NCBI RefSeq assembly: GCF_013408335.1
Contig: NZ_JACBZR010000001.1
Coordinates: 62,001 to 126,000, forward strand
Length of the DNA stretch: 64,000 nucleotides
Source of the DNA: Nocardioides panzhihuensis
GTDB taxonomy: Bacteria; Actinomycetota; Actinomycetes; Propionibacteriales; Nocardioidaceae
Reading direction: 5' to 3'
A model generated the notes under the pieces. The model saw nothing but the letters and a program-made list of their open reading frames with translations, was not told the origin of the DNA and did no database searches. The translations under genes and the position numbers were made by a program. Below are positions 31,506 through 36,807 of this stretch, in pieces (position 1 is the stretch's first letter; each line of letters opens with the position of its first letter).

Positions 31506-32140
31506 CATCCAGGGGTTCGGCAATGTCACGGGTGGTGCTTCCGTTGCTCGGCGGGACCGCGGTCGCACTGGCTGTGGTCGCGGGGGTGGTCGGTGGCGCG
31601 ATCGCGCTGCTCGGGACGGACGAGAACGACGCGGGAGCCGTTCCCGCCGACATCTGCTCGAACGTGTCCGGCGTGATTCCGCCGGAGCTCAGCCAGGTCG
31701 GTGACGTTCGACGTACGGACTCGGCGGACAGCACTTCGATGTGCTCGTTCCGAGGCACCACCTCGACCGGGGAGACCTCGGTCCTCATCAGTCTCATCAC
31801 GATCGGTGGAACCGGGCCTGCCGAACGGATGGAGGAGGACCCGGAGCGCTTCGTCTCAATGCGTTGCGGTGGGCTCAAGATGTTCACCACGGTTCCGCAG
31901 GCCCCTGGCATCCCTGAGGGAAGCTACGACGAGGTTCCTGACAAGTGGTGTGCCGCCACCGAGGTTCGCAGCGGTGAGGACGACAGCGTCGAAGCTGCGG
32001 CGGGTGCGGGCACGGTTCACAACCGGGTGGAGCACGTCGGGGGCAGCGCGTACCTGCAGGTGACGATCCTCCGAGCCGGTGTCGATGTCGACGGGCTCGA
32101 GGAGCTCGGGGTCGAGGTCGTCGACGCGTTGCGACCGTGA
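31502..32140 (+). CDS. Membrane-anchored or exported protein of unknown function
   Basis: A 212-residue protein starting at an ATG that overlaps the previous stop (ATGA). One N-terminal hydrophobic helix (VVLPLLGGTAVALAVVAGVV) acts as anchor or signal. The outer domain has cysteines in ADICSNV, TSMCSFRG, MRCGGLKM and DKWCAATE. The pattern of about 180 exported residues with DUF3558-like spacing suggests a small cell-surface domain, but no function can be assigned. It lies inside the nucleoside salvage cluster without an obvious link to it. Confidence 0.6.
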   Translation: MTSRGSAMSRVVLPLLGGTAVALAVVAGVVGGAIALLGTDENDAGAVPADICSNVSGVIPPELSQVGDVRRTDSADSTSMCSFRGTTSTGETSVLISLITIGGTGPAERMEEDPERFVSMRCGGLKMFTTVPQAPGIPEGSYDEVPDKWCAATEVRSGEDDSVEAAAGAGTVHNRVEHVGGSAYLQVTILRAGVDVDGLEELGVEVVDALRP

Positions 32141-32153
32141 ACCGCCGATGATC

Positions 32154-32210
32154 GAAGTGGTCACTTCGGGCCGTCGGGAGTGGTGGTGACGGCCCCGGAA
32201 TGACCACTTC
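32154..32210 (+). terminator. Long imperfect hairpin before deoA
   Basis: GAAGTGGTCA (32154-32163) pairs with TGACCACTTC (32201-32210) and the stem continues through GGGCCGTC/GACGGCCCC with a small bulge. It lies 14 bp after the upstream stop codon and about 70 bp before deoA, so it is a likely terminator. Confidence 0.65.
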
Positions 32211-32279
32211 TCCGGCCGGTCTTGGGCCAGGGGGGTCGTCCGGTGGGAACCTGCGGGTCCCTCGCCTTACGCTGTCCGC

Positions 32280-33563
32280 ATGGCGGAACATGATGCGGTC
32301 GAGGTGATCCTCGCCAAGCGCGACGGTGGCGAGCTGAGCGACTCGCAGATCGACTGGATGATCAAGGCCTACACGGCCGGCGACGTGGCCGAGGAGCAGA
32401 TGTCGGCCCTCAACATGGCCATCCTGCTCAACGGGATGTCGCGGCGCGAGATCGCGCGGTGGACGGCCGCGATGATCGCCTCGGGGGAGCGGATGTCGTT
32501 CTCCTCCCTGGACCGGCCGACCGCCGACAAGCACTCCACCGGCGGCGTGGGCGACAAGATCACGCTGCCGCTCGCGCCGCTGGTCGCCGCGTGCGGCGTC
32601 GCGGTCCCGCAGCTGTCCGGTCGCGGGCTCGGCCACACCGGTGGCACGCTCGACAAGCTCGAGTCGATCCCCGGTTGGCGGGCCTCGCTGTCCAACGAGG
32701 AGATGATGGCCCAGCTCGGGTCGGTCGGCGCGGTGATCTGCGCGGCCGGTGAAGGGCTCGCTCCGGCCGACCGCAAGCTCTACGCGCTGCGCGACGTCAC
32801 CGGCACCGTCGAGGCGATCCCGCTGATCGCCTCCTCGATCATGTCCAAGAAGATCGCCGAGGGCACCGGTGCGCTGGTGCTCGACGTCAAGGTCGGGGCC
32901 GGGGCGTTCATGAAGACGCTGCCGTCCGCGCAGGAGCTGGCGCGCACCATGGTCGACCTCGGCACCGATGCAGGCGTCAACACGGTCGCGCTCGTGACCG
33001 ACATGGCCACGCCGCTCGGCCTGACCGCGGGCAACGCGATCGAGGTCGCGGAGTCCGTCGAGGTCCTCGCCGGCGGCGGCCCTGCCGACATCGTCGAGCT
33101 CACCGTCGCGCTGGCCCGGGAGATGCTCGCCGCAGCCGGTGTCTCCGGCCCGGACCCGGCCGACCTGCTCGCCTCCGGCAAGGCCATGGACGCCTGGCGG
33201 GCGATGATCTCCGCCCAGGGCGGCGACCCGTCGGCACCGCTGCCGGTCGCGCGAGAAACCCACGTGGTCACCGCACCGACCGCCGGTGTGCTGACCCGGC
33301 TCGACGCGATGGCCGTCGGGCTCGCAGCGTGGCGGCTCGGCGCGGGGCGGGCGCGCAAGGAGGACCGGGTCCAGGCCGGGGCCGGGGTCACCTGGCACGC
33401 TCGCCCTGGCGACGAGGTGACCGCAGGCGCGCCACTGTTCACGCTCCACACCGACACGCCGGAGCGGTTCGACCGGGCGCTCGCGGCGCTCGAGGGTGGC
33501 TACGAGATCGGGGACGGGGCGGCGTACGAGGCGACGCCGCTGATCCTCGACCGGATCGGCTGA
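32280..33563 (+). CDS. deoA: Thymidine phosphorylase
   Basis: A 427-residue pyrimidine nucleoside phosphorylase that converts thymidine (and often deoxyuridine) plus phosphate to base and deoxyribose-1-phosphate. Diagnostic blocks are DKHSTGGVGDKITLPLAPLV near residue 83 (phosphate loop), GRGLGHTGGTLDKLESIPG near 115 and SSIMSKKIAEG near 184, followed by the C-terminal domain. A TACGCT hexamer ends six bases before the ATG. It sits downstream of cdd as in mycobacteria. Confidence 0.94.
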   Translation: MAEHDAVEVILAKRDGGELSDSQIDWMIKAYTAGDVAEEQMSALNMAILLNGMSRREIARWTAAMIASGERMSFSSLDRPTADKHSTGGVGDKITLPLAPLVAACGVAVPQLSGRGLGHTGGTLDKLESIPGWRASLSNEEMMAQLGSVGAVICAAGEGLAPADRKLYALRDVTGTVEAIPLIASSIMSKKIAEGTGALVLDVKVGAGAFMKTLPSAQELARTMVDLGTDAGVNTVALVTDMATPLGLTAGNAIEVAESVEVLAGGGPADIVELTVALAREMLAAAGVSGPDPADLLASGKAMDAWRAMISAQGGDPSAPLPVARETHVVTAPTAGVLTRLDAMAVGLAAWRLGAGRARKEDRVQAGAGVTWHARPGDEVTAGAPLFTLHTDTPERFDRALAALEGGYEIGDGAAYEATPLILDRIG

Positions 33564-33591
33564 CGGAGCTTTCTTGCTGTCGGGGAGGTGG

Positions 33592-33976
33592 CACTTCCCC
33601 GCCGTGGCGGGGAAGTGTTCTGCGGGGTGTAGGCGGTGACACTTCCCGCTTGGGCGGGGAGTTGCTCTGTGGGTGCTGCTGGAACGGTGGCACCTTTCCG
33701 CCTGGGCGGGGGAGTGCTCTGCCGGTTATGCCGGAGCGACCGAGCACTTTCCCACTCGGGTGGGGAAGTGCTCGGCAGCGTGAGTCGGGGTGGCTGCAGT
33801 TTCGCGCCGCGGCGGGAAACTGTTCCGCCGGGTGGTGTCGGTAGCACCTCTCCGCTTGGGCAGGCAACTGCTCCGCGTCCTGCCGGAACGCGGCGACACC
33901 TCCCCCACCTAGGTGGGAAAGTGCTCCGCGAGTCGCGCAGACGCGGCCGCACTTCCCCACCTAGGTAGGAAAGTGC
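33592..33976. repeat. Array of eight imperfect palindromes, about 51-bp period
   Basis: This fills most of the 479-bp gap between deoA and the S66 peptidase gene; I see no gene in it. Eight palindromic cores have centres near 33604, 33652, 33703, 33757, 33809, 33857, 33910 and 33962 (spacing 48-54, mean about 51). Unit 1 has perfect 12-bp arms, CACTTCCCCGCC and GGCGGGGAAGTG. Unit 4 has 14-bp arms with one mismatch; units 7 and 8 are centred on ACCTAGGT. Arms change together (GCC/GGC in unit 1, CAC/GTG in unit 4, ACCT/AGGT in unit 8). Most cores are followed by a (C/T)TCYGC-like tail, which gives the repeat a direction. Confidence 0.85.
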
Positions 33977-34042
33977 TGCCCGCCCCAGCAGCGGGTGGAT
34001 AACCATTCGCATCGCAGGCCCGCGCGCAGCCAGACTTCGGCC

Positions 34043-35086
34043 ATGAAGATCGTCAAGCCACCCAAGGCCGTCGCGGGCGACAAGGTCGCCGTGCTGTCAC
34101 CCTCGTTCGCTGCGCCCGGGGTGGCGCCGGCGATCCACGAGCAGGCGATGGCGCGGCTGGCCGAGGTGACCGGGTTGGTGCCCGTGGAGTATCCGACGAC
34201 CCGAAAGCTGGGCGCGACGGCGCAGGAGCGCGCGGCGGACGTGAACGCGGCGTTCGCCGACCCGGAGATCCGGGCGGTGCTGGCGACCATCGGGGGCGAG
34301 GACCAGATCACCGTGATCTCGCATCTCGACGCCGACCTCCTGAGAGCCGACCCGAAGCCCTTCCTCGGCTACAGCGACAACACCAACCTGCTCAACTGGC
34401 TGTGGACCAACGGCGTCGCCGCGTTCCACGGCGGCTCGACCCAGGTCCACCTCGGACCGGGGCCGGGGCTCGACCCGATCCACGAGGCCTCGCTCAAGGC
34501 CGCCCTCCTCACCGGCGGCAGCCTGGAGATCACCGAGCCGGGCGAGTCCGAGGACATCGGGCACGACTGGCAGGACCCGCGTGCGCTGACCGAATACGGT
34601 GAGCGTGAGGCGACCGAGCCCTGGACCTGGGCGGGCCCCGAACGGAAGATCACCGGCCGCACCTGGGGCGGCTGCATCGAGATCCTCCAGTGGGTGCTGA
34701 CCGCCGGACGCTTCCCGACCGACCCGGAGGTGCTGGCGGGCGGCGTACTCCTCTTGGAGACCTCCGAGGAGCTCATTCCGGCTCACGAGTTCGGGTGGAT
34801 CGCACGCGCGCTAGGTGAGCGCGGGCTGCTCGAGGCGGTCGACGCGGTCGTCGTCGGGCGCCCGCCGACCTCTGACTTCGAACGCCGTCCCAGCGCGGAG
34901 GAGCGCGCCGCGAAGCGGGCCGAGCAGCGCGACGCGGCGATCGAGACCGTCGCCCGCTACAACCCCGACGCGATGGTCGTCGTGGGCCCGCCGTTCGGGC
35001 ACACCCGGCCGCAGTGGATCGTGCCGTACGGCGGCGAGATGACCGTCGACGGCACGACCCAGCGACTGTGGGCCGACTACTCCTGA
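34043..35086 (+). CDS. S66-family peptidase (LD-carboxypeptidase/MccF-like)
   Basis: A 347-residue serine peptidase-fold protein. The order VAVLSPSFAAPG, ATIGGEDQITVI near residue 93 and FLGYSDNTNLLNWLW near 114 is the nucleophile-elbow region of S66 enzymes. Later blocks are GGVLLLETSEE and PPFGHTRPQWIVPYGG with a catalytic His. Family members cleave LD-peptide bonds in murein recycling or inactivate microcin C-like aminoacyl-nucleotides. The MccF-like length and C-terminus make either role possible. ATG 34043 is chosen from the domain start; a GTG 48 bases upstream would add a non-conserved tail. Confidence 0.85.
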   Translation: MKIVKPPKAVAGDKVAVLSPSFAAPGVAPAIHEQAMARLAEVTGLVPVEYPTTRKLGATAQERAADVNAAFADPEIRAVLATIGGEDQITVISHLDADLLRADPKPFLGYSDNTNLLNWLWTNGVAAFHGGSTQVHLGPGPGLDPIHEASLKAALLTGGSLEITEPGESEDIGHDWQDPRALTEYGEREATEPWTWAGPERKITGRTWGGCIEILQWVLTAGRFPTDPEVLAGGVLLLETSEELIPAHEFGWIARALGERGLLEAVDAVVVGRPPTSDFERRPSAEERAAKRAEQRDAAIETVARYNPDAMVVVGPPFGHTRPQWIVPYGGEMTVDGTTQRLWADYS

Positions 35087-35127
35087 GCCGGCCGTTGGTC
35101 GAGCCGGGAGGCCGCCTGCGGCCGAGC

Positions 35128-35185
35128 GTGTCGAGACCAACACGGTGCCAGCGGCGCTCGAATACGACTGTGTTGGTCTCGACAC
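35128..35185. repeat. Dispersed inverted repeat, copy 2
   Basis: GTGTCGAGACCAACAC (35128-35143) pairs perfectly with GTGTTGGTCTCGACAC (35170-35185), a 16-bp stem. The centre (GGTGCCAGCGGCGCTCGA...) resembles that of the copy at 20704-20755, and GTCGAGCC / CGACCAGCG sequences flank both. It lies between the convergent S66 peptidase and MaoC genes and may also terminate transcription. Confidence 0.8.
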
Positions 35186-35235
35186 GCCTCCGCCTAGTGG
35201 CTCCGAGGTCTGAACGAAGTGGCCTTCGACCAGCG

Positions 35236-35691
35236 TTAGGACTCGAGGAGGAGGACGACGGACTCCGCGACGCACGCGGGCTTCTCGGCGCCCTCGATCT
35301 CGACGGTGGTCTTGACGACGAGCTGGAGACCGGTGGGGAGCTCGGTGACCTCACCGAAGGCGACGGCCGCGCGGACGCGGGAGCCGACCAGGACCGGGGT
35401 GGGGAACCGGACCTTGTTGAGGCCGTAGTTGAGCTTCGCGCCGGGCGTCTCCAGCGAGTAGACGCTCACACCGAGGTAGGGGAGCAGGGACAGCGTGAGG
35501 TAGCCGTGGGCGATGGTGCCCCCGAACGGACCCTCCTTGGCCCGTGACTCGTCCACGTGGATCCACTGGTGGTCACCGGTGGCGTCGGCGAACGCGTTGA
35601 CGCGGTCCTGGTCGACCTGGAGCCATTCTCCGGTGCCGATCTCGGAACCGGCGGCGGCGGAGACTTCTTCGAGAGAGGTGAATGTGCGCAC
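35236..35691 (-). CDS. MaoC-family dehydratase (hotdog fold)
   Basis: A 151-residue single-hotdog protein. The hydratase-2 motif region [17 protein letters not shown] (Asp and His catalytic pair near residues 36-41) and the [17 protein letters not shown] helix are typical of (R)-specific enoyl-CoA hydratases and MaoC/NodN-like proteins. It probably hydrates a short enoyl-CoA in the cytoplasm; the substrate is unknown. GTG 35691 is preceded by TAGATT seven bases upstream (leaderless signature). Longer in-frame starts would run into the divergent add promoter. Confidence 0.88.
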
Positions 35692-35698
35692 AGCCCGG

Positions 35699-35708
35699 AA
35701 TCTAGCCT
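35699..35708. promoter_or_regulatory. Overlapping divergent -10 hexamers (maoC / add)
   Basis: The ten bases AATCTAGCCT contain TAGATT on the minus strand (35699-35704, for the MaoC gene) and TAGCCT on the plus strand (35703-35708, for add). The two hexamers share the central TA, so the two promoters cannot be occupied at the same time. Confidence 0.6.
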
Positions 35709-35727
35709 GATGCGGAACAATGGGCCC

Positions 35728-36807
35728 ATGAAACCGTCCGACATGCAGATCAAGGCCGCCCCGAAGGTGCTGCTCCACGACCACCTCGACGGCGGTCTAC
35801 GCCCCTCCACGATCGTCGAGCTCGCCGCCGAGGTGGGTCACCAGCTCCCGGAGGGCACTCAGGACGACCCGGTCGCGCTGGAAGAATGGTTCGTCACCAG
35901 CGCCGACTCCGGGTCGCTGGAGCGCTACCTCGACACCTTCGCGCACACGCTGGCGGTGCTGCAGACGCTGCCCGCACTGACCCGGGTGGCCCGCGAGTGT
36001 GTCGAGGACCTGGCCGAGGACGGGGTCGTCTATGCCGAGGTCCGCTGGGCGCCGGAGCTCCACGTGGCCAACGGCCACGAGCTGGACGAGGTCGTCTCGG
36101 CCGTCCAGGCCGGGTTCGACGAGGGTATGGCGGCGGTCGCGACCACGGGCCGGAAGATCGTCGTACGCCAGCTCCTCACCGCCATGCGCCAGGCCGCTCG
36201 CGCCGCCGAGATCGCCGAGCTCGCAGTGACCTGGCGCGACCGCGGGGTGGCCGGGTTCGACATCGCCGGGCCGGAGAAGGGCTTCCCGCCGAGCCGGTTC
36301 CTGGCAGCGTTCGAGCAGCTCGCCGCCGACAACATGCGCTTCACCATCCACGCCGGCGAAGGCTTCGGGCTGCCGTCGATCTGGGAGGCCGTGCACCCGT
36401 GCGGGTGCGACCGGCTCGGTCACGGCGTACGCATCGTCGATGACATCACCGTCGAGGAGGGCGAGGCGCCGAGGCTCGGCAGGCTCGCTGCGTACGTTCG
36501 GGACCGGCGGATCCCGCTCGAGCTCTGCCCGCGCTCCAACGTGCAGACCGGGGCTGCGAAGTCGATCGCCGAGCACCCGATCGGCCTGCTCTACGACCTC
36601 GGGTTCCGGGTCACCATCAACACCGACAACCGGCTGATGTCACGCACCTCGATGACATCGGAGATGACCGGCATCGTCGAGGCCTTCGACTGGGGCCTTC
36701 CCGAGCTCCAGCGGCTGACGACCAACGCGATGAAGTCCGCGTTCATCCCCTACGACGAGCGGGTCGACCTGATCCACGAGATCAAGGACGCGTACGCAGC
36801 GCTGTGA
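35728..36807 (+). CDS. add: Adenosine deaminase
   Basis: A 359-residue metal-dependent deaminase that converts adenosine and deoxyadenosine to inosine forms. Zinc ligands and catalytic residues are visible: [12 protein letters not shown] near residue 13 (HxH), [13 protein letters not shown] near 205 (His and Glu), [10 protein letters not shown] near 230 (His) and [12 protein letters not shown] near 292 (Asp pair). This is the actinobacterial add type (M. tuberculosis Rv3313c-like). ATG 35728 is used; ATG 35710 and ATG 35743 are in frame and less likely. The 3' end overlaps the convergent kinase gene by 26 bases. Confidence 0.94.

Follow-up and report, generated by a model that had tools for sequence, protein, structure and literature searches.

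What fills the 479 bases between deoA and an S66 peptidase gene in Nocardioides panzhihuensis, and how did it come to lie there? We examined this question in a 64,000-nucleotide stretch of contig NZ_JACBZR010000001.1 (positions 62,001 to 126,000; hereafter the window), whose own genome is designated G000. The gap is filled by an array of eight imperfect palindromes (about 33591–33987). We lean towards the view that the array arose when an element resembling repetitive extragenic palindromic (REP) elements, dispersed in the Nocardioides luteus group, was amplified locally, and that it probably acts as a set of hairpins at an mRNA 3′ end.

A regular array of degenerate palindromes

The first unit begins 27 bp behind the deoA stop codon, and the start-to-start spacings of the eight units are 47, 52, 54, 52, 48, 53 and 52 bp (mean 51.1 bp), confirming the regular array of about 51 bp that a preliminary description of this DNA had reported. 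The units share 62–79% identity with unit 1, and the spacers between them (19–26 bp) are mostly unlike one another. That description had also proposed a directional (C/T)TCYGC tail; YTCYGC is exact in five of the eight units, and the other three deviate. A satellite of identical units, which it had already rejected, is unsupported here as well, as Tandem Repeats Finder recovered only the last 2.2 units and unit identity is as low as stated above.

The arms of the units pair well. Among the arm cells of the array 88.3% are paired, and sliding the partner column by 1–3 positions reduced this to 41–57%. The gap folded more strongly than any of 100 dinucleotide-shuffled sequences, with z-scores of −7.66 and −6.95 for the two strands, and in the minimum-energy fold distant units pair with each other instead of forming eight separate hairpins. 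The preliminary description had further held that both arms change together between units. Within the array, we counted 5 double-change cells versus 3.7 ± 1.5 in shuffles (163 of 500 reached 5), and the covariation score and the percentage paired were reached by 52 and 41 of 500 shuffles, respectively. One base pair did show a genuine exchange of G-C (five units) for A-T (three units), whereas the ACCT/AGGT arms cited as an example belong to two adjacent units with identical letters. Since there is no excess of double changes, the array by itself does not bear out the proposed covariation of its arms. The arm mismatches are of the transition type in 20 of 23 cases (11 G-T and 9 A-C), a pattern that looks like decay.

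A dispersed family under apparent selection for symmetry

A covariance model of the eight array units (R1) found more copies in the window's own genome and in related ones. We then used a model of the single palindrome (R2), which was derived from 31 dispersed units plus four from the array and carried no distance information; it matched eight of the ten genomes tested (all except G068 and G014), with 7–45 matches per matching genome when both strands were counted. The family consensus is a palindrome of ~28 bp, GCANTTTCCCGCCATGGCGGGAAANTGC. Of 215 genomes in the genus, eight contain its exact core, TTCCCGCCNNGGCGGGAA: G000, six of the seven relatives with the closest deoA (G061, G146, G217, G011, G218 and G001) and G068, where the copy has no partner. 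The seventh relative close by deoA, G015, holds inexact copies only. The palindrome family is thus dispersed and centred on the N. luteus group. No description of it appeared among the open-licence papers of PubMed Central (PMC) listed by our searches.

Compensatory change, which did not stand out in the array, is present across genomes. All 62 dispersed copies together contain 42 double-change cells versus 25.9 ± 4.6 in shuffles (0 of 500 reached this number), and the four outer pairs, which were not selected by the core search used for collecting copies, contain 33 versus 20.9 ± 4.0 (1 of 500); these shuffle counts are not probabilities, because the dispersed copies are mutually related and some are orthologous. 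A hand-thinned alignment of 35 rows (A2), including 31 of the 62 dispersed copies, gave 34 versus 14.6 ± 2.8, a signal that is overstated since the thinning removed some poorly paired copies. Nine copies with at least three core mismatches showed no covariation (6 versus 5.6). In the dispersed copies, G-T mismatches numbered 18 versus 9 A-C mismatches (P = 0.06). Selection for pairing or symmetry, as first suggested for the array, is therefore supported by the dispersed family and not by the array alone.

Two further sets of palindromes were noticed. In G000, a stretch of ~2.3 kb (L055, G000:C1:4853100-4855345) has several degenerate family units in its intergenic gaps, and genome G033 has a repeated palindrome of its own, TTTCACCGCTTAGGCGGTGAAA, next to a second hairpin (L034, L044, L051 and L053).

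Palindromes are paired at 52 or 62 bp

The dispersed palindromes occur as doublets with a rigid distance. For 63 palindromes outside G000, among the matches listed, 22 neighbour distances were shorter than 60 bp: 20 of exactly 52 bp, one of 51 and one of 53. Consistently, a partner scan from 63 anchors over 22–124 bp, in which array units were among the anchors and one pair may count twice, found 32 partners at 52 bp, four at 53, seven at 62 and two at each of the distances 47, 50 and 51, with a background outside 45–64 bp of ~0.1 per distance. Doublet spacers are mostly dissimilar. Nevertheless, their in-register information was 5.2 versus 3.5 ± 0.3 in shuffles (17 pairs, some orthologous, after de-duplication had dropped several other pairs and two array pairs), and a GCCGCCGGATCCG-like motif recurs in spacers at three sites (at least 11 of 13 letters; chance ~0.003 per spacer). 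The shared information and the recurring motif suggest that some family members probably descend from common ancestors that were already complete doublets.

A scan of the genus for doublets at 34–64 bp matched 7 of 209 genomes and shows clean doublets only, because exact cores were demanded. G011, G217 and G218 contributed 11 doublets (nine at 52 bp, one at 51 and one at 53), and all five doublets of G062, G081 and G099 were spaced by 62 bp, one helical turn longer; one pair in G000 lies at 64 bp. A four-unit array at 62 bp was found in N. luteus JCM 3358 (L158), and longer arrays thus exist elsewhere; it came from a contig scan yielding at least 117 stretches of unrelated taxa and many spacings, of which only the Nocardioides records were used. 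Two further 62-bp neighbours occur in G068 (C1:1758414 and 3146831). Together with L336, L337, L338, L343 and L347, these are pairs of similar palindromes spaced by 62 bp in other Nocardioides, and some of them have an extra hairpin in the spacer.

Family members lie behind stop codons and differ between close relatives

We placed 46 clusters relative to genes (none was obtained at loci L025 and L334). With the window array set aside, 37 of 45 are intergenic. In a set of 35 clusters, from which the window array, the eight clusters in called genes and two duplicates had been removed, 30 lie at most 35 bp behind a called stop codon (median 12 bp). Where both neighbouring genes were called (34 clusters), they are convergent in 10 cases, co-directional in 24 and divergent in none. 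Several of the 35 clusters are orthologous, so these cases are not independent events. Adjoining genes include gatB, hisF, hutH and a dihydroorotase gene. Separately, at five N. luteus-group loci (L052, L121, L081, L145 and L323) a family palindrome or doublet sits in frame within larC; at L323, the element falls between the NCBIfam matches to LarC1 (to residue 89) and LarC2 (from residue 129).

In the seven closest relatives examined, the array itself is missing from the deoA 3′ end, which counts against the conserved location that the preliminary description would have required. Five of them carry a TGTAACACG...CGTGTTACA element at this place and two a GGTCGAG-type palindrome. Behind gatB, a family doublet occurs in G000 only, with a CCGAGTCGGC-type hairpin in five relatives and a GTGTTGGTCTCGACACG-type element in two. 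Behind hisF, we found doublets in G217 and G001, single units in G011, G146 and G061, a degenerate trio in G000 and nothing in G218 and G015. The L090 site has doublets in G217, G218 and G061 and none in five relatives. Presence and absence thus vary among relatives at identical gene ends, and replacement at several of these ends suggests that palindromic elements come and go over short evolutionary distances. Inspection by eye, unscored, of filled and empty sites revealed no target duplication or insertion scar that stood out. Behind gatB and at L085 and L093 (in L244–L293), several other families of palindromic elements likewise take one another's place in closely related genomes.

Origin and likely effect of the array

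The tails of the array units resemble each other more than they resemble those of dispersed copies. Tail similarity is 0.69 within the array and 0.45 to dispersed copies (0 of 5000 draws). Among 36 comparisons of spacers and flanks, the top two z-scores belong to the spacers after units 2 and 6 (s2-s6, 4.5) and those after units 1 and 5 (s1-s5, 3.9), both four units apart; these pairs suggest, without proving, an old duplication of a four-unit block. On the strength of the common tails and the two spacer pairs, the array looks locally amplified.

We therefore propose the following course of events. The element typically occurs as a doublet, with two palindromes of ~28 bp that are spaced by 52 bp and follow a stop codon within a few bases. 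Such an element may have been gained at the 3′ end of deoA in G000 and then multiplied there, probably by duplication of a four-unit block, after which the array would have decayed, mainly through transitions. Copied into a deoA–S66 transcript, it could form a cluster of GC-rich hairpins. The most likely effect of such hairpins at mRNA 3′ ends, judging from their position and from a report of hairpin-cluster terminators (discussed below), would be to cut read-through into the S66 gene or to protect the 3′ end of the deoA mRNA.

Several results weigh against this proposal. No canonical intrinsic terminator (a GC-rich stem with a T run behind it) was found in 32100–36000, and a fixed 52-bp distance is not required for termination. 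On the deoA strand of the array, G-T mismatches are not in excess over A-C mismatches (11 versus 9), so that no wobble bias points to selection on the sense RNA, and we rejected such selection for the array. The spacers after units 3 and 7 (s3-s7), whose similarity a four-unit duplication also predicts, are not elevated. As for a REP-like origin, the GTAG/CGTC tag was not found in the 124 flanks (GTAG 0, with 2.0 expected from shuffles; CTAC 2 and 1.8; CGTC 5 and 6.4; GACG 9 and 6.7), and Y1 (RAYT-type) transposases were not matched by PF01797 in any of 13 genomes, compared with 5 of 14 control genomes, Escherichia coli included; the mover of REPs is therefore missing in these 13. Finally, the gene calls behind the placement counts were made by a home-made codon-usage script.

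Relation to known repeat systems

RAYT transposases are generally regarded as the enzymes that mobilise REP elements. The family described here shares with REPs, and with the REP doublets called REPINs, an imperfect palindrome of 20–40 bp, extragenic placement at gene 3′ ends and an organisation in doublets. PMC3733652 and PMC3116915 describe REP dimers with GTAG or CGTC tags and REPINs near gene 3′ ends, between convergent and co-directional but not divergent genes, some of them intragenic and some in larger clusters. Where the copies lie, their pairing, the arrays met now and then and the copies inside genes all agree with REP elements as described in these two papers and in PMC2817692. The family here differs in having no GTAG/CGTC tag, no PF01797 match in 13 genomes, tens rather than hundreds of copies and a single rigid distance of 52 bp. 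The number of matches per genome (7–45) stays below the more than 100 copies usual for REPs, a weak test because PMC2817692 lists REPs with few copies too. With tag and transposase absent and the copy number low, the family is REP-like and not REP. The earlier remark that the array is no known REP type thus holds for tag and transposase, whereas architecture and placement are REP-like (PMC3733652).

Other systems are similar in single respects. The BIME-2 arrays (bacterial interspersed mosaic elements) outlined in PMC2817692 also have palindromic units regularly spaced in an intergenic gap; in BIMEs, according to the same source, REPs alternate in orientation and modules are conserved, whereas here the tail keeps one direction (exact in five of eight units) and the spacers are mostly unlike. 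Clusters of hairpins behind stop codons have been reported as terminators although they lack a U run (PMC8355165). Those are likewise clustered at most 80 bases past the stop codon, with hairpins less than 15 bases apart, compared with ~24 bp here and a single repeat family at a fixed distance. Rickettsia palindromic elements, which PMC3733652 mentions, are translated in frame within protein genes, an arrangement similar to that in larC here. Family clusters here are, however, mostly intergenic (37 of 45).

REP-like placement, doublets and a rigid distance in genomes that, as searched, have no Y1 transposase raise the question of whether another enzyme or selection at gene 3′ ends is responsible. 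The Nocardioides group offers a natural comparison, as close relatives may have at one gene end a doublet, just one unit, a larger number of units, a palindrome of a different family or no element at all; RNA-seq across such relatives could show how these differences affect read-through and the ends of mRNAs.

Alternative explanations

The preliminary description left a choice between a multi-site operator, a structured RNA array and a degenerate element. The last fits best, given degenerate units, dispersed relatives and absence behind deoA in seven relatives. The operator idea survives at the level of the family, as paired binding sites for a putative dimeric DNA-binding protein: a doublet would present two symmetric sites on the same helix face, separated by 52 bp or about five turns, and the array would be a cluster of such sites. 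A distance kept despite mostly unlike spacers, a conserved symmetric core and the five of five clean doublets that lie one turn further apart, at 62 bp, in three other Nocardioides would all be expected, but the elements lie after stop codons and not at promoters (0 of 34 between divergent genes), array spacings range over as much as 7 bp, the greater part of a turn, and the array site is not conserved in relatives; we consider this explanation unlikely. An operator of deoA or the S66 gene was rejected, as 32100–36000 contains no promoter-like site and the array is absent in the seven closest relatives. We give a similarly small chance to a broader proposal in which paired palindromes whose distance amounts to full turns of the helix (52 bp for the N. 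luteus group and 62 bp for other species) form a RAYT-independent class in Nocardioides; a putative DNA-binding or DNA-rearranging protein would set this distance, install or maintain doublets behind stop codons and be able to extend them into arrays such as this one. REP elements proper were rejected because the tag was missing and PF01797 had no match in 13 genomes.

Decay raises a different possibility, that the array is a neutral remnant of a mobile repeat with no present function. Its degenerate units, mostly transition mismatches and lineage-specific presence agree with this, but the outer-arm covariation of the family and the 52-bp distance sharply kept in diverged copies suggest that something maintains the family, which says little on the array itself; we regard neutrality as quite improbable. 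We find it very improbable that the units are the individual hairpins of a single functional RNA kept by selection on the transcript of the locus. Such a structured RNA would explain the strong folding, which was seen on both strands, but not the lack of a covariation excess in the array, wobble pairs without strand bias or the absence of an orthologue at the site. Nor did Rfam report any match at the gathering score in the window, a result by which a known RNA family was dismissed; nine weak sub-threshold matches were mostly to animal microRNA families (the best reached 32 bits, where the cut-off is 268). An array of clustered regularly interspaced short palindromic repeats (CRISPR), with 28-bp repeats and short spacers, would account for regular repeats and differing spacers; repeat identity of only 62–79% to unit 1, spacers of 19–26 bp that are in part mutually related, and dispersed doublets behind genes make it barely conceivable, in agreement with the preliminary description. 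The 479-base gap, searched as a whole and not spacer by spacer, had no match in plasmid or phage collections, and a phage or plasmid origin was discarded. A coding array was also set aside: open reading frames span the units mechanically, but not every unit spacing is divisible by three.

Features of the locus

The coordinates of the array units and of the genes on either side are collected in Table 1.

Table 1 Palindrome units and flanking genes (positions in the window).
Feature	Position	Strand	Evidence
deoA, thymidine/pyrimidine-nucleoside phosphorylase	32280..33563	+	NCBIfam NF004490 and Pfam matches
Palindrome unit 1	33591..33618	+	
Palindrome unit 2, 1 base shorter	33638..33665	+	
Palindrome unit 3	33690..33717	+	
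Palindrome unit 4	33744..33771	+	
Palindrome unit 5, downstream spacer similar to that after unit 1	33796..33823	+	s1-s5 z 3.9
Palindrome unit 6, downstream spacer similar to that after unit 2	33844..33871	+	s2-s6 z 4.5
Palindrome unit 7, 1 base longer	33896..33924	+	
Palindrome unit 8	33949..33976	+	
S66 (LD-carboxypeptidase) family gene	34043..35086	+	Pfam PF02016, PF17676; ATG start by conservation in relatives

Two other symmetric stretches flank these features. A palindromic element of the GGTCGAG...GTGTCGAGACCAACAC type, a kind found after deoA or gatB in relatives, lies 3′ of the S66 gene (35094–35234), and a further symmetric stretch, CGAAGTGGTCACTTCGGGCC...GGAATGACCACTTCTCCGG, is located 5′ of deoA (32153–32215).
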